Position numbers and translations under genes: made by a program. Of a DNA stretch of 64,000 nt, positions 8,830-18,236 are shown piece by piece. Origin of the DNA: Arcobacter suis CECT 7833 (GTDB taxonomy: Bacteria; Campylobacterota; Campylobacteria; Campylobacterales; Arcobacteraceae); NCBI RefSeq assembly GCF_003544815.1, contig NZ_CP032100.1, forward strand, positions 558,001-622,000, read 5' to 3'. The notes below the pieces were generated by a model, which saw only the letters and a list, made by a program, of their open reading frames with translations, had not been told where the DNA came from and searched no databases. How positions within the stretch are numbered: position 1 is the stretch's first letter; the number at the start of each line of letters is the position of its first letter.

Positions 8830-10044
8830 ATGACTTTAAGCCTAAATAAATTTTTGTTTTCTATATCCTTTGCATTAGATTTAGCGGAGAATGAAATAAA
8901 ATGTACTTCTTCAAAACATAGTAAAAGAGTAGCTTATATTTGTGTTAAAATAGCTGATATTATGGGATTAAGTGACGAGGAAAAGTTTGATTTGTGTTCA
9001 TACTCTTTATTACATGATAATGGATTAATAGAGAGTTATTGTAACTTTAATAATCAGTATGAAAATAGTGGATCAGAAGATTATTTTAATATGATAAATT
9101 TCTCTGATCACTGTGTAATTGGAGAAAATAATATTAAAGATTTTCATTTTCTAACTTTTCAAAAGAATGTAATTTTATATCATCATGAAAATTTTGATGG
9201 TTCAGGTCTTTTTGGGAAAAAAGCAGATGAAATTCCTCTTTTTTCACAGCTAATATCCTTTGCTGATATTTTGGATACGGATTTTGATTTAACTAATATT
9301 TGTTATGAAAAAAAAGAGCAAATAACAGATTTTGTAATAAAAAATGAAGGAAAACTTTTTTCAAGTAATATTGTAAATGCATACAAAAAATTATCTGATT
9401 CTTTCTTATTTTGGGGAGACTTAGAATATTTTGATGAAGTAAATCCATTAGAAAGAATATTACCAGATTTTAGTATTGAAATTTCATTTGAAAATTTTCT
9501 ATTAATTACAAAGATTTTTTCAAAAATAATAGATGGAAAATCAAAATTTACAGCAAAACATTCTGTGGATTTAGAACAAAAATCTTTAAAAGTAGTAGAA
9601 TATTTTGGTTTAGATGAAGAAACAAAATTAAAAATCCAAATAGCTTCAAATTTACATGATATTGGAAAACTAGGAACGCCAAATTCTATTTTAGATAAAG
9701 AAGATAGTTTAACAAAAAACGAATTATTTGAAATAAAAAAACATGCTTATTTAACTCACACAATTTTGAGTAAAATTGATAATTTTAGTGATATAACAAA
9801 ATGGGCATCTTCTCACCATGAAAGATTAGATGGAACAGGATATCCTTTTGGTTTGACTAAAAATGAATTAGGATTAGAAGAAAGAATCGTATCTTGCTTG
9901 GACTTTTATCAGGCTTTAGTTGAAGATAGACCTTATAGAAAATCTATGTCCCATTGCGAAGCAATAACTTTATTAAGAAAGAACCTGAGTAATTTTGATA
10001 TAGATGCTGAAATAATAGACGTAATAGATATTGTATTTAGATGA
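8830..10044 (+). CDS. Tandem HD-GYP domain protein
   Basis: A 404-residue soluble protein with two HD-type halves. The C-terminal one (about 240-400) is a complete HD-GYP: HSVDLEQ, LHDIGKLGTP, HHERLDGTGYPFGL and a late YQALVEDRPYRKS. It should hydrolyse cyclic di-GMP or a related dinucleotide. The N-terminal half (about 20-160) keeps HSKRVAY, LLHDNG and YHHENFDGSGLFG, but HDIG has become HDNG and GYP has become GSGL, so it may bind rather than cleave. There is no receiver or membrane segment. AAAAAGGA lies 8 bases before the ATG. Confidence 0.85.
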   Translation: MTLSLNKFLFSISFALDLAENEIKCTSSKHSKRVAYICVKIADIMGLSDEEKFDLCSYSLLHDNGLIESYCNFNNQYENSGSEDYFNMINFSDHCVIGENNIKDFHFLTFQKNVILYHHENFDGSGLFGKKADEIPLFSQLISFADILDTDFDLTNICYEKKEQITDFVIKNEGKLFSSNIVNAYKKLSDSFLFWGDLEYFDEVNPLERILPDFSIEISFENFLLITKIFSKIIDGKSKFTAKHSVDLEQKSLKVVEYFGLDEETKLKIQIASNLHDIGKLGTPNSILDKEDSLTKNELFEIKKHAYLTHTILSKIDNFSDITKWASSHHERLDGTGYPFGLTKNELGLEERIVSCLDFYQALVEDRPYRKSMSHCEAITLLRKNLSNFDIDAEIIDVIDIVFR

Positions 10045-10274: not shown

Positions 10275-11651
10275 TTATTTTTTATAAAAAGATAAGATAA
10301 TAGTTGTACCAATATTTTCTTTACTTGTGATTTTTATTATACCTTTGTGAATATCAATTATCTTTTTTAAGATAGACATTCCAAGCCCTGTTCCACCAGA
10401 ATTTTTATTTCTACTTTTATCTGTTCTATAAAACTTTTCAAATATCTTTTCTTGTTCATTTAGTGGAATTCCTATTCCAAAATCTTGAACTGAAATATTG
10501 AAAGTATCGTCATTTTTATAGCTTTTTACTATAATTTGTGAATTTTTATGACTAAATTGGATAGCATTTTTTAAAGCATTTTTTAAAGCTATTTTTAAAA
10601 GATTTGGGAAACCTTTAAATTCTATACTATCTTCTAAAATAAAATTAATTTCAACTTGATGTAATTTTGCAAAACTTTTGATTTCATTTATTGATTCATC
10701 AATTAATTCATCAAAATAAAAATTTTCTTGTTTATCTACTATTAAATCTTTTTCATTTTTTGCTAAAAATAGTAAATCATTAATTGTTTGTTCAATTAAT
10801 GTAAGCTCATTTAGAGAGTTATTTAGTGCATTTTTATATTCATCAGTTGTTCTTTCTTTTCTTAGCGTAACTTCAATTTCACCTCTTATGATTGTAAGTG
10901 GTGTTTTTAATTCATGGGAAGCATCAGAACTAAATTGAGAAATTCTTTCAAAAGAAGATTCTAATCTACCAAGTAAATTGTTTACTTCATTGATTAATTG
11001 ATTTATTTCATCTTCATTTTTTCTTGTTTTTAGTCTTGCAGATAAATCATTTGCATTTATTTGTTTTAATTCAAAGAGTATATTTTCTATTGGTGAGAAT
11101 GATTTATAAATCAAAAAATTACCAGCAATAATTGCTAATATTAGGATAATTGGTAGAATAAAACTTAAAATATACAAAATATTTTCTAAAGTTGATGTAA
11201 GTATTTCTTTTGTTGTTACTATTTCAATTATTACATTTTTTTCACCATGAAAATCTATTTTTATTCTACTTACTAAAAAGTCATTTTGTTCTTCAAATGT
11301 AATGATACTTGGTTTTAATTTATTTAAATAGTTATCATCATGTTTGATATTAGATGGAAAGTTTGGTGTTTCAATTATCATTTCATGGCTAATATCATCT
11401 AATATTCTTATGTATAAAGGTTCAAAGTTATACTCTTTTTCTTCATCTAATATAGCATTTGTAATTTTATCTTTTTCTAATAAATCATCTGTAATATCTA
11501 ATATTATTACTTTTAGAGTTGCTTGAAGTTTATCTAAAGTTGATATTTCAAGTGCTTTGTATAATGAAACAGAAAAAATAGTAAGAATTATTGCTTGTAT
11601 TAAAAAACTATAAATTAGAAGTTTTTTCTTTATTGATAGATTATTTATCAC
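10275..11651 (-). CDS. Sensor histidine kinase (last gene of nine-gene operon)
   Basis: A 458-residue transmembrane kinase. Membrane helices lie at about 10-30 and 160-185 around a periplasmic region of about 130 residues without recognisable fold. Then come HAMP (about 185-235), HisKA with FSSDASHELKTPLTIIRGEIEVTL, and HATPase with NALKNAIQFS (N box), DFGIGIP (G1), FEKFYRTDKS (F box) and GGTGLGMSI (G2). It overlaps the response regulator by 11 bases. The ligand cannot be read; linkage suggests it monitors the envelope or redox function encoded by the same operon. Confidence 0.93.
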   Translation of the reverse strand: MINNLSIKKKLLIYSFLIQAIILTIFSVSLYKALEISTLDKLQATLKVIILDITDDLLEKDKITNAILDEEKEYNFEPLYIRILDDISHEMIIETPNFPSNIKHDDNYLNKLKPSIITFEEQNDFLVSRIKIDFHGEKNVIIEIVTTKEILTSTLENILYILSFILPIILILAIIAGNFLIYKSFSPIENILFELKQINANDLSARLKTRKNEDEINQLINEVNNLLGRLESSFERISQFSSDASHELKTPLTIIRGEIEVTLRKERTTDEYKNALNNSLNELTLIEQTINDLLFLAKNEKDLIVDKQENFYFDELIDESINEIKSFAKLHQVEINFILEDSIEFKGFPNLLKIALKNALKNAIQFSHKNSQIIVKSYKNDDTFNISVQDFGIGIPLNEQEKIFEKFYRTDKSRNKNSGGTGLGMSILKKIIDIHKGIIKITSKENIGTTIILSFYKK

Positions 11652-12309
11652 TTATTTTAAATCCTATTCCTCGAACTGTTTTAATCAGTTTATTATCAAA
11701 ATTCTTATCTATTTTATTTCTTAATCTATAAATATAAACATTTACAATATTACTAATATTTGAATCTTCAAATGAAGATAAAGCTGAATTTATAGTAGTT
11801 TCACTCAAAACTCTATCTTTGTTTTTTATTAGATATTCAAGTAGGGCAAACTCTTTTGCTGTTAAAGTTATATTTTCATTTGCTCTAACTGCTGTTTTAT
11901 TTAATAAATCTAGTTCCAAATCAGCTATTGAAATTTTTGTTTGGCTTGAATTTGTGGTTCGTAGTTGTACTCTAATTCTTGCAAGTAATTCTGCAAAAGA
12001 AAAAGGTTTAGCCAAATAATCATTTGCTCCAATATCCAAACCTTTAATTTTATCTTCAATGGAATCTTTGGCTGTTAACATGATAATTGGAGTTTGATTT
12101 TTCGAGGCTCTTAGGGCTTTACAAACTTCGATTCCATCTTTAATTGGAAGCATAACATCGAGTAAAATTAAATCATACTCATTTACACTAGCAAGGTATA
12201 AACCTTCATCACCATTTGTTGAAGAATCAACTATATAACATTCTTCAACTAATCCTTTTTTTAAAAAGTTAATTATTTTTGTGTCGTCTTCTATTATTAA
12301 AATTTTCAT
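11641..12309 (-). CDS. OmpR-family response regulator
   Basis: A 222-residue two-domain regulator. The receiver has IIEDDTKI, the phospho-acceptor in LILLDVMLPIKDG, and the lysine in LAKPFSFAEL. The winged-helix DNA-binding domain has LTAKEFALLEYLI and VYIYRLRNKIDKN...VRGIGFKI. It is encoded just before its kinase (11-base overlap) and 3 bases after the metallophosphoesterase gene. It probably controls this operon or other envelope genes. Confidence 0.95.
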   Translation of the reverse strand: MKILIIEDDTKIINFLKKGLVEECYIVDSSTNGDEGLYLASVNEYDLILLDVMLPIKDGIEVCKALRASKNQTPIIMLTAKDSIEDKIKGLDIGANDYLAKPFSFAELLARIRVQLRTTNSSQTKISIADLELDLLNKTAVRANENITLTAKEFALLEYLIKNKDRVLSETTINSALSSFEDSNISNIVNVYIYRLRNKIDKNFDNKLIKTVRGIGFKISDK

Positions 12310-12312
12310 AAA

Positions 12313-13041
12313 TTATTCTACACTTTTTGAGATTAATTTAACTATTGTTATTTCTGCATTTGCTTTATATCTAAGTTTTAAACCCCAAGTTCCTAAGCCT
12401 TTATTTACATAAATAGCTGTATTTTTTTTATAAAATATTCCTGCAAGAAATGGTTGAACAAGCCTTACTAAATAATGAAAAGGATAAATCTGACCGCCAT
12501 GTGTATGTCCACATAAAAAAAGGTTTGTATTTCCATCAAGTGCGATTTTATAATCTTTTGGTTGGTGAGAGATAAAAATAGAGGGTTCATTTAAAAGATA
12601 GTTTTTTATTTTTTGTTCTTCTCTTTTTATACCAAAAAATTTTGAAAATCTATCAGGAAGACCAGCTATGAATACAGTTTCATTTTTATAAACAAATTCT
12701 TTGCAAGAATTATCCATAAAAATAAAATTAGAAAGTTCTTTTTTTAAATCTTCTAAACCATAAAATAAATCATGATTTCCACTTATGTAATAAACTTTAA
12801 ATTTTAAAGTATTTAAAATTTGAAGTTGTTCTTTTATAAATTTTACTTTTGTATCAATTATATCACCAGTTATAACACAAAAATCAAAAACTAAATCATT
12901 ACACAAATTTACAAGTTTTTGTACGTTTTCAAGGTTTGTTTTTTTATTTATGTGCAAATCACTTAAATGCAAAATTTTTAAATCATTTAGTTTTGCACTA
13001 TTTACAAATACATCAACTGTTTGAATATTAGAAAGGATCAT
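12313..13041 (-). CDS. Calcineurin-like metallophosphoesterase
   Basis: A 242-residue phosphoesterase with all dimetal motifs: LHLSDLHINK, VITGDIID, YISGNHDLFYG, FISHQPKDY and FLCGHTHGGQIYP. It resembles the YkuE-type branch, often linked to envelope phosphate esters, but there is no signal peptide and the N-terminus is mostly catalytic. The substrate is unknown. It overlaps the upstream gene by 4 bases within the nine-gene operon. Confidence 0.85.
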   Translation of the reverse strand: MILSNIQTVDVFVNSAKLNDLKILHLSDLHINKKTNLENVQKLVNLCNDLVFDFCVITGDIIDTKVKFIKEQLQILNTLKFKVYYISGNHDLFYGLEDLKKELSNFIFMDNSCKEFVYKNETVFIAGLPDRFSKFFGIKREEQKIKNYLLNEPSIFISHQPKDYKIALDGNTNLFLCGHTHGGQIYPFHYLVRLVQPFLAGIFYKKNTAIYVNKGLGTWGLKLRYKANAEITIVKLISKSVE

Positions 13042-13493
13042 TTAAAAAATCCTTCTAATTCATATATAGATGATATAAATTTAATATCTTTTATATAACC
13101 ATTTTGTATAAAATAAACAGTAATTTTGTTTTCTTCTTCGATGAATTTTTTATTGTTTTCATTGTAAATTAACAAAATATCATATTTATAATCTCTCATT
13201 TTTGGAATAGTAAACATTTTTACAACAATAGATGGAATAGATGAAATGTTATTTATAAAAATAGTGTTGTTTCTATCTAAAAAATCACTATTTTTTGATG
13301 ATAAAAAATCATTTACAAGATTTGTAGTTTCTTTTTGGAAAGTTACTATAATCATTGAAATTTCACTAGTAATAGTATGAATTTTATCAAACTGATTTAC
13401 TAGTGAAAAAGTACTTATTTTATCATCTATTTTTAATGTACCTGCATTTGCATAAATGCAAACCATCATTGATAAAATAAGTTTTTGTAACAT
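13038..13493 (-). CDS. Secreted thioredoxin-fold-like protein without active cysteines
   Basis: A 151-residue protein with a signal peptide (MLQKLILSMMVCIYANAG). KIDDKISTFSLVNQFDKIHTI looks like the entry of an AhpC/TSA or SCO-like thioredoxin fold. However, the only cysteine is in the signal peptide, so the mature protein cannot do CxxC chemistry. It may be a degenerate redox-fold binding protein. The family is not certain. It starts one base after YceI ends and overlaps the phosphoesterase by 4 bases. Confidence 0.6.
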   Translation of the reverse strand: MLQKLILSMMVCIYANAGTLKIDDKISTFSLVNQFDKIHTITSEISMIIVTFQKETTNLVNDFLSSKNSDFLDRNNTIFINNISSIPSIVVKMFTIPKMRDYKYDILLIYNENNKKFIEEENKITVYFIQNGYIKDIKFISSIYELEGFFK

Positions 13494-14021
13494 CTATTTT
13501 ACTTCATTTAATGAAATATTATAAGAGATATCTATTTGATTTCTAACAGTTAAAAAAAGCATTGTTGGTGGCTCTAAATTGAAATCTGTAAGATTAAATG
13601 AAAAACCTCCATTTAATAAAATCTCATTATTTTGTTGATTGATAATAATTTTTGCTTTAATATTTTTTGTAACGCCATTTAATGTTAAAGCACCTTTTAT
13701 TTCATAATCAGTTTCATTTTTTGTAATACTTTTAATATCAAAAGAGATTGTTTTGAATTTTTCTACATTCAATAACTTATACATATTTGTATCTCTGTCT
13801 TTTTTTTCACTTATTAGTGTTAAGGTATCAAAATAAATTTTACCTTTGATTGATTCAATACCATTTTCAATTGTTAAATCAGATTTTACATTTTTTGTAG
13901 TTGGATTTATTTCACTATCTCCAAAAACATTTGTGTGAGCTTTTATCTCACCATTTTGAACTGTTAAGTTATTTGCATTTGCAAATAGAGCTAAACTTAA
14001 TATTACTAATAATTTAAACAT
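13494..14021 (-). CDS. YceI-family periplasmic lipocalin-like protein
   Basis: A 175-residue protein with a signal peptide (MFKLLVILSLALFANA). The YceI features are GDSEINPTTKNVKSDLTIENG, INGALTL-type GALTLNGVTKNIKAKIII, and a beta-rich layout. Members bind amphiphilic isoprenoid-like molecules and often neighbour cytochrome b genes, which fits the oxidase-like gene two positions upstream. AAGGAAA precedes the ATG. It overlaps the membrane protein gene by 8 bases. Confidence 0.82.
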   Translation of the reverse strand: MFKLLVILSLALFANANNLTVQNGEIKAHTNVFGDSEINPTTKNVKSDLTIENGIESIKGKIYFDTLTLISEKKDRDTNMYKLLNVEKFKTISFDIKSITKNETDYEIKGALTLNGVTKNIKAKIIINQQNNEILLNGGFSFNLTDFNLEPPTMLFLTVRNQIDISYNISLNEVK

Positions 14022-14982
14022 ATTTTATTTCCTTGTTATTTGGTTTATATTCACTCAACATTATTTTAAATATTGCCAATAATAAAATAATTGGAACAAA
14101 TAAAATTAAATTTGACAAAGCTACAAAAAGCCCTGCACCAGAAGCCATCCAACCAATAAAAATCATATAAAACGTAATGGTTTTAAAATCTTTTTTTGCG
14201 ATAGTTTGTAAAATCACAACATTGTAATAAGATATTACAAATGGATAAACTATTGATAAAATAAATCCCTCCCTTAAAAAATAAAATAGATATGAAGCTG
14301 CAAATAAAGTCAAAATAAGTAAACTTTTTTGATTTTTCTCAATTTTGAAAAATAAAGCACAAAAAACTCCAATTACATGAAATAGTGCAATTTGAAAGGT
14401 AAAACCATCCCTCCAAATAGAAATTGTAATATCCCTTGAAAGCGCTTCAAAAAGAGCAGAATCTAAAAATACCCATAAAACCATCATTAATAAAGCAAAC
14501 TCTTGATTTGATTTTTTTATAGGTTCATTTGTTGGTAGAAATCTTGAAGCAAGTAATGTAATTGTTGTTAATGTAATTGCAATAATTCCCCTTGCTTCAA
14601 CTTCATAGTTAAATAATAAAGTTCCTGTAACATAAGAAACACTAAGTGCAAGACCAAGTTCTAGTAGAGATGTTTTTTTGATTTCATTTATAATAAGAGG
14701 AGCTAAACTTCCAACGGCAAATCCTAAAATAAACAAAGTTAACATATTGAAATTTGGATATAAAAAACTCATAATTAATTGAATAGTTAAAAATAGAGAG
14801 ATTTTATTTTTAAAATCAATTTTTATATATGAAACCAGTAACGAGCCAATAATTCCTCCTATTGGAAGAGGCGCTATTAAAAACAAATTTGAAGAAAAGT
14901 ATTCAACAACTCCTGTTTGAGCAATTAGTAAGTAATAACAAAGTTCACTTGCTATAAAAAAAATTAAAATTAATCTTTGCAT
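14014..14982 (-). CDS. Polytopic membrane protein, possibly MFS-like
   Basis: A 322-residue very hydrophobic protein with about ten predicted membrane segments and Gly-rich helix contacts (PLPIGGIIGSLL, LGFAVGSLAPLI, GWMASGAGLFVAL). The look is that of a short major-facilitator transporter, but I see no signature loop and give no substrate. It lies between the YceI gene and the oxidase-like gene, overlapping them by 8 and 13 bases, so its product probably works with theirs. Confidence 0.6.
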   Translation of the reverse strand: MQRLILIFFIASELCYYLLIAQTGVVEYFSSNLFLIAPLPIGGIIGSLLVSYIKIDFKNKISLFLTIQLIMSFLYPNFNMLTLFILGFAVGSLAPLIINEIKKTSLLELGLALSVSYVTGTLLFNYEVEARGIIAITLTTITLLASRFLPTNEPIKKSNQEFALLMMVLWVFLDSALFEALSRDITISIWRDGFTFQIALFHVIGVFCALFFKIEKNQKSLLILTLFAASYLFYFLREGFILSIVYPFVISYYNVVILQTIAKKDFKTITFYMIFIGWMASGAGLFVALSNLILFVPIILLLAIFKIMLSEYKPNNKEIKYV

Positions 14983-16550
14983 AAAAACTCCTTTTGATAA
15001 AAATAAATTAAATAAACGAATACAAAACTCAAGTCAAATAAACAAATGGCTAAAGCTTCATATCCCAACTTTCCACTGGCATATAAAGCGAAAAAAACTG
15101 AACTTGCAAATACTCTAATAATCACTGTTAAGTTCATTAAAACCACTTGGCTTGATGGATTTTTTAAAGCCATATAATGAATAATTCCAGTCATACTTAC
15201 AAAAGCAAAAACCACATATTCATAAACTCCACTAAAACTAAATCCAATTAAAGGATAAATAAAACTAGCAAGTAAAATCAAAAATACTCCTCCTAATCCA
15301 TCACTTAAAATTCCAGCGATGTTATAAAGTTCTATTTTTGAATAAGTTTTTGTTTTAATACCTATTTGTATAAATGCAGATATAAAAATAAAAGTAAAAC
15401 ATCCAAAAATAGTTCTTAAAATCCAAAGATTTTGACTTGGAATATTTAAAAGTCCTGCTTCTGTAAAACCTGAAATTGATAAAACTATAAATATTCCTAA
15501 AAGTGCAAACAAATAGCTATTTAAATAGATAGATTTTTGAAGTTCTTTTATACTGTTTATAAACATTGAAATAACCATAAAAAACACAGATATTCCCATT
15601 GCAACATGAGCATGAGCAATAACTAAATCATTTCTGTGAAATAACCATCTGATTTCCGGAATAAAAATAATATTTCCTTCAATATCCACAAACAAAAAAG
15701 CTAATATTGAAATTAATAAAGCTTTTTTTGCATATGGTTGAATATTGCTATCTTTAAACCATCTATATAAAAGTGGAACATATAAAAGTGTTAGATATTG
15801 AGCAACCCACTCTTGATTGTAAGTTAGTGGTTCAAAAAAGATTCTATATAGAACTGTTCCAAAATAAAAAATAGTTGGGATAATCCATAAAATATTCCAT
15901 CTAGCTTTAAATTCACCAATATTTAATAGTTTGATAATTAGATAATAAATTGGAAGTAAAGCCAAACTCATTCCTAAAGTGTTATCTCCATGGGGACCTG
16001 TAACTGTACTTTCAACTTGACCGATAATTGGATTCATTAAAATTAAAAGTGTTACAGGAGCTATTATTACAACCCTTAAACACACTTTTATCCATAAAGG
16101 AAGAGTTTTATAAAGTCTAATAAATTTGTATAAGGCTATGATATAAAAAACACCAGCTAAGGCTAATAAAAAGTTTAATTCATAAGCAAAATCATAAAAA
16201 GCCAAACCTCTATTTTTTCCTAAAAGCAAACTTACAACCATAAAAACCAAAAAGATATACCAAAAAATAGTATAAAGATTTAAGTATCTAAGACCCTCTT
16301 TATCAAAACCAACTTCCTTATTTATAAGTAAAAAAGGTAAATACGAAAGCATTAATGGAATAAATCCATAAAGCATTAATGAAATATGAATTGCTCTCAT
16401 ATTTACTGGATTTAAAGTTTCAGAGTTTAAACTAAAACCTAAAAGATTTATTGAATAAACAATCCCGAAAAACAATCCTAATGCAAAAAATGTAATAGAT
16501 ATTTTGAAATTTTTATCTATAAAATTACTAAAATTATTCAATTTTTCCAT
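14970..16550 (-). CDS. Heme-copper oxidase subunit I-like protein lacking metal-B ligands
   Basis: A 526-residue protein with about 12-14 membrane helices. NPVNMRAIHISLMLYGF (His55) matches the low-spin heme helix of cbb3 oxidases and NO reductases. IAHAHVAMG (His313, His315) matches their His-x-His helix. The invariant His-His pair of the CuB/FeB site is absent: the protein has no HH at all. The helix-VI histidine region reads GPHGDNTLG, where Asp189 or His187 would have to substitute. It therefore probably binds heme but lacks the normal binuclear centre. An in-frame TTG (codon 4) has better Shine-Dalgarno spacing than the ATG at 16550. Confidence 0.75.
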   Translation of the reverse strand: MEKLNNFSNFIDKNFKISITFFALGLFFGIVYSINLLGFSLNSETLNPVNMRAIHISLMLYGFIPLMLSYLPFLLINKEVGFDKEGLRYLNLYTIFWYIFLVFMVVSLLLGKNRGLAFYDFAYELNFLLALAGVFYIIALYKFIRLYKTLPLWIKVCLRVVIIAPVTLLILMNPIIGQVESTVTGPHGDNTLGMSLALLPIYYLIIKLLNIGEFKARWNILWIIPTIFYFGTVLYRIFFEPLTYNQEWVAQYLTLLYVPLLYRWFKDSNIQPYAKKALLISILAFLFVDIEGNIIFIPEIRWLFHRNDLVIAHAHVAMGISVFFMVISMFINSIKELQKSIYLNSYLFALLGIFIVLSISGFTEAGLLNIPSQNLWILRTIFGCFTFIFISAFIQIGIKTKTYSKIELYNIAGILSDGLGGVFLILLASFIYPLIGFSFSGVYEYVVFAFVSMTGIIHYMALKNPSSQVVLMNLTVIIRVFASSVFFALYASGKLGYEALAICLFDLSFVFVYLIYFYQKEFLCKD

Positions 16551-17157
16551 CCTTTACTTCATAAATTTTATTTGCTAACGCAGCTAAACTTTTATCGTGA
16601 GTTGCTACGATAATTGTTGTTCCTTTATTTGCAAATGTTTTAAATAACTCAAATACATTTAAAGAGTTTTTTGAATCCAAATTTCCAGTTGGTTCATCTG
16701 CAAAAATGATTTTTGGATTATTTATCAAAGCTCTTGCAATGGCAACTCTTTGTCTCTGACCTCCAGAAATTTCATTTGGGTATTTGTCTATTAAATTTTC
16801 AATTCCTAAAAGTGTTAATAAATCAAAAATCTCTTCTTTTGAAGCCTTTTCATTTGCAAGATTTATATTTTCTTTTACACTTAAATAATTGATTAAATAG
16901 TGGAATTGGAAAATAAAACCTATATTGTTTTTTCTAAAATCATCTATATTTTTTATATCTTTATAGTTTATATTTTCATAAACAATATCTCCACTTGTTG
17001 GTTTTAAAAGCGTTGATAAAATAGATAAAAGCGTAGATTTTCCACTTCCACTTTCTCCAATTATTGCTATAAATTCGCCACTTTTTATCTCTAGGTTTAT
17101 GTTTTCTAATGCTAAATCTTTATTATAATAGTGTGTTAAATTTGTTACTTTTATCAT
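16534..17157 (-). CDS. ABC transporter ATP-binding protein (LolD/MacB type)
   Basis: A 207-residue ATPase with Walker A GESGSGKST, Q-loop FIFQFHYLI, signature ISGGQRQRVAIARAL, Walker B IIFADEPTGNLD and the H-loop VATHDKSLA. The EPTGNLDS variant is typical of the LolD/MacB/FtsE branch that pairs with FtsX-like permeases. It overlaps that permease by 4 bases and the oxidase-like gene by 17. A mechanotransmission or envelope export role is likely; the substrate is unknown. Confidence 0.93.
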   Translation of the reverse strand: MIKVTNLTHYYNKDLALENINLEIKSGEFIAIIGESGSGKSTLLSILSTLLKPTSGDIVYENINYKDIKNIDDFRKNNIGFIFQFHYLINYLSVKENINLANEKASKEEIFDLLTLLGIENLIDKYPNEISGGQRQRVAIARALINNPKIIFADEPTGNLDSKNSLNVFELFKTFANKGTTIIVATHDKSLAALANKIYEVKDGKIE

Positions 17158-18236
17158 ATTTTATTTCCTTGAATTAACTCAACTGGATCTGTTTTTGCTG
17201 CATTTAAAGCAGGAATTATCGAGCCAAAAATAGCCATAAAAATTGAAGTTATAAAAATATAAAAAGCTAATTCATTTGAAATTTCACCATTTACATAACC
17301 TTGTAAACTTGAAATATTTTTTATAGAAAACAAAACAATATGTGAAATGACAAAAGCACTTATAAAACTAGTAAGTCCCAAAATAAAACTCTCACTCATA
17401 ATTGAATAAACAATTTTCGAAGTACTTATTCCTAAGGCTCTTTTGATTCCAAATTCGCTTTTTCTTTGATTTATTGTGATACTCATTAAACTTACGATTC
17501 CTAATAATCCCATAGAAAAGGCGATAAACGAAATAACATTTGATGAGGTTTTTATGATTTTAAATTGATTATAGTTATCCACAAAATTTTGAGTTGATTT
17601 AGCATCAATCTGGTCACTTATAATTTTTATATCATTGATAATATTTTCAACATTAAAGTTTAGTTCAGTGTTTACCATAATCATAGAAGCTGATTTATTG
17701 AAAATTTGCCCAGCATCACTAATAGTTAAAACAACTCCACCATTTTCAAAACCAATTTCACTTTTAAAAATCCCAGAGATTTTAAAAGTTTTATTAGCAA
17801 TTTGAATTTCATTTTTATTTACCAATTGGTCATATATAGATTTTCCAACAATTACTTCATCTTTTAATGGATAGTTTCCAGCAATCAATTCATAGTTTTT
17901 AAATCGATTAAAACTTGCTCCATAAACAGCAACAATTGGAAGTTTTTCAACTGGACTTGCTCCAACAATTAAAGCAGTTGATTCAAGTACTCCTTTTATT
18001 TTATTTATTTGTTCTATTAAATTTATATCTACATTTGAAAAAAATGTATCAGAAATTTTTGCTTGAGTAATGATAATATCACCGTCACTTTTAAGCATAG
18101 AAGAGTACATTGTAATTATTCCATTTGAAATAGAACTAATTAAAAAAATAGAAACAATTGAAAAAATTAGACTTAAATAGATAAGAGTAGTTTTTAGTTT
18201 ATTTGCCATCAAGGCTTTTAAAGCATTAGAAATCAA
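17154..18236 (-). CDS. ABC transporter permease, FtsX/MacB family
   Basis: A 360-residue permease: one N-terminal membrane helix (about 15-35), a large periplasmic MacB-type domain (about 36-235), then three helices in the FtsX core with SLMSITINQRKSEFGIKRALG and a C-terminal PALNAAKTDPVELIQG. It starts with TTG at 18236, six bases after AAGGAAA. It is the first gene of the nine-gene minus-strand operon, whose promoter must lie in 18237-18352. Confidence 0.9.
   Translation of the reverse strand: MISNALKALMANKLKTTLIYLSLIFSIVSIFLISSISNGIITMYSSMLKSDGDIIITQAKISDTFFSNVDINLIEQINKIKGVLESTALIVGASPVEKLPIVAVYGASFNRFKNYELIAGNYPLKDEVIVGKSIYDQLVNKNEIQIANKTFKISGIFKSEIGFENGGVVLTISDAGQIFNKSASMIMVNTELNFNVENIINDIKIISDQIDAKSTQNFVDNYNQFKIIKTSSNVISFIAFSMGLLGIVSLMSITINQRKSEFGIKRALGISTSKIVYSIMSESFILGLTSFISAFVISHIVLFSIKNISSLQGYVNGEISNELAFYIFITSIFMAIFGSIIPALNAAKTDPVELIQGNKI

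Follow-up and report, generated by a model that had tools for sequence, protein, structure and literature searches.

A haem-copper oxidase relative without the metal-B histidines in a transporter and lipocalin gene cassette of Campylobacterota

Haem-copper oxidases (HCOs) are textbook respiratory enzymes, and the question raised here is what a relative of their subunit I does when the histidines of the metal-B site (CuB or FeB) are missing. The protein is encoded in a 64,000-nucleotide stretch of Arcobacter suis CECT 7833 (contig NZ_CP032100.1, positions 558,001 to 622,000), hereafter the window. Positions are counted from the first nucleotide of this whole stretch and refer to the minus strand where no sign is given. 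The gene (14970-16550, minus strand) has an open frame, starts with ATG and encodes 526 residues, composed of an HCO core (about 1-403) and a C-terminal extension with four predicted helices (405-517). The loss of the metal-B histidines is a trait of a conserved family and not a frame error, because H187, D189, R236 and E247 are identical in all 57 rows of the family alignment. Non-oxidase electron transfer is the likeliest role of the protein, and we infer that the chemistry of oxygen (O2) or nitric oxide (NO) has been lost. Our preferred reading, which we hold at somewhat less than an even chance, is that of a membrane electron carrier with two haems and no metal B, working in an envelope cassette for lipid or quinone transport.

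In the available text of PMC3413370, a histidine sextet is termed the HCO signature. The window protein has six histidines in all (55, 187, 305, 313, 315 and 458) and no HH pair. H55 belongs to the R52-x-x-H55 motif of helix II (residues 50-63, 16362-16403), while H313 and H315 lie in the HRNDLVIAHAHVA stretch (residues 304-317, 15600-15641). All three align with haem ligands in 12/12 alignments. The two low-spin ligands (H55 and H315) and the high-spin one (H313), as assigned by alignment, are identical in 57/57 rows. The protein probably binds two b-type haems, a low-spin one on H55 and H315 and a high-spin one on H313.

Metal B is held by three histidines, one on helix VI and an HH pair on helix VII, and these places are occupied here by D189 and by Leu, Tyr or Arg. 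D189 lies in the invariant GPHGDNTLGM motif (residues 184-197, 15960-16001). The helix-VI place is thus taken by an invariant Asp two residues past an invariant His (H187), and is therefore a replacement rather than a mere gap. In 7/8 alignments that include cbb3 oxidases, D189 is set against the metal-B histidine of helix VI, and in a separate mixed alignment against that of 8/8 cbb3, 8/8 cNOR (cytochrome c-type NO reductase) and 1/1 qNOR rows. An hhalign comparison with cbb3 (probability 53) sets HGDNTLGM on YGHNAVAF, again with D189 on the helix-VI histidine. The helix-VII pair corresponds to L234, Y235 and R236 (residues 233-249, 15804-15854), followed by the TYNQEW stretch; R236, Y244 and E247 are invariant in this segment. 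Residue 234 is Leu, Ala, Ile, Val or Phe in the 44 unique full-length sequences used for the metal-site alignments (44/44), and residue 236 is Arg in 57/57 rows. Residue 235 is Tyr in 34 of the 57 rows, His in 15 (for example at locus L016) and another residue in 8; since it is His in those 15, a subset of the family has one of the three metal-B histidines. None of the alignments run yields three of them. With an Asp in one of the metal-B places and an Arg in or beside a second, a D189-R236 charge pair could plausibly take the place of the metal.

The 57 rows are made up of the window protein and those unique tblastn matches that cover ~400 or more residues of the query, near-duplicates among them; of the 60 profile-positive genomes, 30 contributed only where their loci came from earlier searches. 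Identical in 57/57 are R52, H55, H187, G188, D189, N190, Y229, R236, Y244, E247, Q251, N293, H305, N307, D308, H313, H315, D417, H458, R479 and D506, with W248 kept in 56/57 and E291 in 48/57. The dN/dS ratio (nonsynonymous to synonymous substitution rates) of the window gene against seven relatives is 0.125-0.22. An earlier note on this DNA, made from the letters alone, had quoted the motifs RAIHISLM (H55), GPHGDNTLG (H187) and IAHAHVAMG (H313/H315) and the absence of any HH pair, all of which are present as quoted. Its claim that the haem-helix histidines are kept while the three metal-B histidines are absent is confirmed by the alignments and by the 57/57 conservation. The loss extends across the family, with HH found in only 3/57 rows and then elsewhere in the chain.

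With the single protein as query, relatives were found in 34/298 genomes of the phylum Campylobacterota, in 14/58 genera; a profile search extends the family to 60/397 genomes and 18/68 genera. Identity to the window protein ranges from 94% down to 41%. The closest named records are metagenome-assembled genomes of Aliarcobacter, and the gene is also present in Halarcobacter, Malaciobacter, Arcobacter and Sulfurospirillum arcachonense records. A contig scan, also made with the single protein, returned 15 loci, 14 with campylobacterotal names and one titled "bacterium"; such a scan is sensitive to close relatives only and says little on the range outside the phylum. A plasmid tblastn search gave no match, and among viral contigs, 21 stretches fit a pattern, none of them coding for a relative. 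One genome (G379, C1:1208646-1210187, minus strand) carries a broken copy of the gene with eight stops.

COX1 is the sole Pfam family matched by the window protein (21.2 bits against a cut-off of 34.8), and ccoN the sole NCBIfam model (17.3 bits against 583). Among 26 scanned family members, 25 match COX1 at E<=1 (best 4.1e-9) and 3 match ccoN (best 6.6e-7). A sequence search of solved structures returned nothing with the single protein and one cbb3 chain with the family profile (E 0.0025); two Nta1p chains at E 1.9 were taken as chance. In a PF00115 search of the A. suis genome, the two matches are both cbb3-like, and the HCO-like protein falls below that search's list.

An AlphaFold2 model built from 26 sequences (predicted local distance difference test score, pLDDT, 83.6; predicted template modelling score, pTM, 0.83) shows the 12-helix HCO core when compared with solved structures. 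The best Foldseek match is cbb3 3mk7 (E 1.8e-5). In the VIA comparison, which other families enter only among the matches listed by Foldseek, the top structures are cNOR 3o0r (Z 26.0, root-mean-square deviation (rmsd) 3.9, 368 residues aligned), 4xyd (Z 25.8, rmsd 4.2, 373 residues) and cbb3 3mk7 (Z 25.4, rmsd 4.3, 369 residues), and these three count as tied. The model thus points to an HCO subunit I fold nearest to cbb3 and cNOR, on the C-family side. These matches span residues 1-403 and barely cover the extra helices (405-517). The C-terminal extension as a whole (residues 405-526) includes invariant D417, H458, R479 and D506, and no relatives of it were identified; H458 could be a further cofactor ligand.

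Several points weigh against this assignment of the metal-B place. The pLDDT drops to 52-60 in the stretch leading into helix VI, in the first part of that helix and at residues 301-310, and the hhalign probabilities for the family are modest (cNOR 78, cbb3 53, gNOR-like 16, qNOR 2), those of 16 and 2 giving no usable alignments. D189 is off the helix-VI histidine in all cNOR-only alignments (0/4), in a quick alignment of cbb3 and cNOR together, and in the hhalign comparison with cNOR at probability 78. The register of the HH pair also varies: the eight alignments with cbb3 set it on L234-Y235 in 5, on a gap and Y235 in 2 and on Y235-R236 in 1, the cNOR-only alignments on a gap and Y235 in 4/4, and the mixed alignment on Y235-R236. 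Finally, the invariant H187-x-D189 and E247 could be ligands of a different metal.

This last point leads to an alternative that we regard as unlikely, although it is the most probable of the rivals: an enzyme with a rebuilt, non-canonical metal site, made of H187, D189, E247 or nearby invariant residues opposite the high-spin haem, that reduces NO, O2 or peroxide or acts on a lipid. The invariance of these three residues in 57/57 rows speaks for it. However, of the positions matching the helix-VII ligands only R236 is conserved, and Arg rarely binds a metal; furthermore, none of the linked genes is recognised as encoding an electron-donor subunit. Ligand swaps with a proposed activity do exist elsewhere, as in the WWG[LF]D of 8/8 gNOR-like proteins and in the putative NO dismutases (NODs), where one ligand His is replaced by Asn (PMC3413370, as far as its text was available). 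The statement that every active HCO or NO reductase uses those three histidines, on which the earlier note relied, is overstated in view of these two cases, the activity of the gNOR-like proteins being a proposed one.

Other HCO enzymes of the same phylum provide the frame for comparison. The cNOR-type proteins (selected by a GHH motif) keep HLWVE, GHH and HGH in 10/10, and the cbb3-type proteins (selected by YGHNAV) keep GHVH in 25/25 and GGHH in 24/25. With the cbb3 subunit CcoN and the cNOR subunit NorB, the HCO-like protein shares the core fold, the helix-II RxxH, the helix-X HxH haem ligands and the upstream histidine (H305); a Glu-Gly pair is shared with cbb3 in 48/57 rows. In contrast, all three metal-B histidine places are changed, four C-terminal helices are added, no CcoO or NorC partner is recognised beside the gene, and identity in the structural alignments is 11-14%. 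NODs are likewise HCO relatives with an altered metal-B ligand set, but they are qNOR-like and differ by a single His to Asn change (PMC3413370, available text), whereas all three places are changed here.

The gNOR-like proteins (norGH type, ~550 residues, selected by VWSHHLL) come closest at helix VI, where they carry WWG[LF]D in 8/8 instead of the WWxxH of cbb3 and cNOR. Their Asp is one column off in the MAFFT alignment, so that the statement of a His to Asp replacement, as in the HCO-like family, rests on the WW anchor. The accessible part of PMC8756737 (Table A4) lists D as a gNOR active-site residue. The gNOR-like label itself is inferred from length, neighbours, that table and PMC8906906, as far as these sources could be consulted, and the group was set apart by descriptions rather than by reference gNOR sequences. 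Unlike the window protein, which has no HH, these proteins keep the helix-VII HH pair in 8/8 (having been selected by HH), stand beside a gene of ~200 residues in 7/8 and form a separate clade. The idea that the HCO-like protein is a gNOR, suggested by the conserved Asp and the phylum, was rejected on these grounds: the retained HH, the other neighbour and the separate clade. In a tree, the HCO-like family is one clade (support 100/100), and the cbb3, cNOR and gNOR-like groups are one clade each; the tree carries a long-branch warning and serves for statements on separate clades only, its branching order being left aside. According to the available text of PMC11388526, sNOR, gNOR, nNOR and eNOR are related to B-family oxygen reductases, whereas the best structural matches of the HCO-like protein belong to the C-family. 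Two-gene gNOR-like units occur at L103:3874-6164 (minus), L105:3689-5928 (minus), L107:3194-5496 (plus) and L108:3610-5894 (minus); the larger protein of each has the helix-VI WWG[LF]D and keeps HH, and the smaller protein that was scanned (L103:5511-6164) has no Pfam match. A role as a denitrification gene was also rejected for lack of a tight link: NosZ (PF18764) is found in 16/34 positive and 2/9 negative genomes, and it was not found in the A. suis genome.

The gene neighbourhood bears on what the protein works with. The cluster in the window comprises nine genes, overlapping or at most 3 bases apart. An ABC permease (17154-18236), with the Pfam domains MacB_PCD and FtsX of the MacB/LolC type, and an ABC ATPase (16534-17157), whose closest NCBIfam models are LolD and relatives, below their cut-offs, precede the HCO-like gene. 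They make up a MacB/LolC-type transporter, a permease with its cognate ATPase. The HCO-like gene is followed by genes for a 322-residue membrane protein with the fold of the major facilitator superfamily (MFS) and no Pfam match (14014-14982), a YceI-family lipocalin identified by Pfam (13494-14021), a 151-residue protein without Pfam match (13038-13493), and, again by Pfam, a calcineurin-like metallophosphoesterase (12313-13041), a response regulator with a Trans_reg_C output domain (11641-12309) and a histidine kinase with HAMP, HisKA and HATPase domains (10275-11651). An apparent signal peptide can be read from the sequences of the lipocalin and of the 151-residue protein.

Linkage was counted within 6.5 kb in 34 genomes, that of A. 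suis included, by iterated hidden Markov models (E<=1e-4), which may also pick up ABC, kinase or phosphoesterase genes of a generic kind. The permease, ATPase and MFS-fold genes lie on the same strand as the HCO-like gene in 34/34, the first two directly before it in 34/34. YceI is linked in 33/34, the exception being a genome (G003) with a single YceI match on another contig. The metallophosphoesterase is near in 27/34 and the 151-residue protein in 20/34. On the same strand, the kinase is present in 24/34 and the response regulator in 14/34; the opposite strand has a kinase nearby in 3 genomes and a regulator in 7, some of these genomes having both. In three genomes (G074, G234 and G264), it is the opposite flank of the ABC genes that carries the MFS and YceI genes, and the gene set therefore stayed together through rearrangement. 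A metallo-beta-lactamase-fold hydrolase is near the HCO-like gene in 3 genomes on the same strand and in 3 on the opposite one; such a Lactamase_B_2 hydrolase stands beside the cassette of other families at L050:10782-11690 (plus), L059:10653-11564 (plus) and L058:11038-11952 (minus), where the window carries the calcineurin-like phosphoesterase.

The MFS-fold protein, which has no place in the account of the earlier note, is the strictest partner of the HCO-like gene. With a profile built from linked copies, it is found in 34/298 genomes, the same as those with the HCO-like gene, and not in the other 264. Its model (pLDDT 90.6) has 12 long helices and the MFS fold, the best 18 VIA rows giving Z 24.0-24.9 and rmsd 3.1-3.7 over 297-302 residues, and none of the 21 members scanned matches a Pfam MFS family at E<=1. 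In one genome (G056, C1:1010056-1011928, minus strand), the gene is broken into two separated pieces.

In the mechanism that we propose, the HCO-like protein would form one unit with the MacB/LolC-type ABC transporter, the MFS-fold protein and the periplasmic YceI lipocalin, and the D189-R236 ion pair may stand in for metal B. The haem protein would relay electrons from the quinol pool to a cargo in the membrane, a lipid or an isoprenoid (quinone), which the ABC/MFS pair may then shift onto the YceI carrier, in the way LolCDE loads LolA. Quinol is the presumed donor because no c-type cytochrome or cupredoxin family was recognised among the linked window genes; the Pfam search of the 8 linked neighbours found no oxidase-subunit family either. 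A lipid or isoprenoid cargo is suggested because the permease is of the MacB/LolC type and most YceI structures hold isoprenoids (PMC9113575, available text). Compared with LolCDE and MacB, the cassette has the same MacB_PCD and FtsX permease and a LolD-like ATPase, but no LolA, TolC or adaptor was recognised by Pfam among the linked window genes, YceI being the candidate carrier. Against a firm cargo assignment, YceI genes occur outside the cassette too (three of the four YceI matches in the A. suis genome), so that YceI alone does not fix the cargo.

The nearest worked-out parallel is LcoA-BcnA. In the available text of PMC9113575, a YceI lipocalin and a cytochrome b561 form a pair for the detoxification of lipid peroxyl radicals, and its authors suggest that the b561, LcoA, reduces the quinone bound to BcnA and thereby quenches these radicals. 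Both systems link a membrane haem-b protein, predicted in our case, to a YceI gene (33/34 genomes here; PMC9113575). They differ in the membrane protein, which in our case is an HCO relative outside the b561 family, and in the ABC and MFS-fold genes linked in 34/34. PF01292, which includes hydrogenase cytochromes as well, is matched 4 times in the A. suis genome, and going by the listed coordinates each of these matches is more than 100 kb away from all 4 YceI matches. The more specific form of our proposal is tentative and distinctly less probable than the two-haem carrier itself: an HCO branch that has become the redox component of machinery for moving lipids or quinones in the envelope. This would couple haem electron transfer to the passage of a reduced isoprenoid out of the inner membrane and onto a lipocalin in the periplasm via the ABC/MFS pair, with either an Asp-Arg pair for CuB or a rebuilt HxD...E metal site.

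Two other roles were considered for the cassette. In the first, which seems quite improbable, the protein is a gas or redox sensor that signals to the linked kinase and regulator; an open haem site could indeed bind NO, CO or O2, and on the same strand a kinase lies within 6.5 kb in 24/34 genomes and a regulator in 14/34. The two-component genes are, however, less constant than the permease, ATPase and MFS-fold genes (34/34), and Pfam recognises no signalling domain in the HCO-like protein. The second, a shade less probable again, is haem or metal trafficking, for instance haem export by the MacB-like transporter with the HCO fold as a haem store. An HCO fold should bind haem, and MacB/FtsX-type transporters linked to a two-component system are known for haem export (HrtBA/HssRS). 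Yet the 9 solved structures matched by the permease sequence are named MacB, LolF, LolE, YtrF or plain ABC permease, none of them a haem exporter, and the MFS and YceI partners are left unexplained. It is highly improbable that the protein is a conventional oxidase or NO reductase, still active, and that mere misalignment makes its metal site seem lost, as could be argued from the cbb3/cNOR-like fold and haem ligands and from the cNOR-only alignments that do not place D189. There are six histidines without HH, of which 55, 305, 313 and 315 align with histidines of other roles and 458 lies in the extra C-terminal helices, leaving at most H187, and the sibling families of the phylum keep their HH pairs. 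The earlier note had placed the protein together with YceI and an ABC exporter, which the linkage counts bear out. Of the functions it had offered, electron transfer outside oxidase activity fits best, the loss of O2 or NO chemistry being a deduction from sequence, and gas or redox sensing is the less supported.

An HCO relative with all three metal-B histidine places changed is provisionally new: a literature search, the reach of which did not extend to the primary work on NOR diversity, returned in the text it covered no description of such a relative or cassette. A conserved family of this kind, tied to a cassette of transporter and lipocalin genes, would show the HCO fold at work outside terminal respiration, and the data suggest that an oxidase fold has taken up a different task in the cell envelope. 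The family also calls for caution when nitrogen-cycle surveys label such genes as oxidases or NO reductases, offers biophysics a natural HCO without metal B, and may be a pointer to how Campylobacterota handle periplasmic quinones or oxidised lipids.

Some minor observations concern other COX1-related frames and the border of the cluster. Proteins of 420-425 residues (L112:3072-4334, minus; L113:2119-3396, minus) match, near their N-terminus, only part 308-401 of the COX1 profile, and have neither HH nor HxH. In three genomes (G248, G056 and G109), nearly the same late part of this profile is matched twice within one such frame. One genome listed as 99% complete (G182) has, for PF00115, the HCO-like member and one weak match (a 429-residue frame), and no canonical oxidase. 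Just past the end of the cluster in the window, on the plus strand (8830-10044), a 404-residue protein carries the motifs LHDIGK and HHERLDGTGYP, which we take to be an HD-GYP-like signature.

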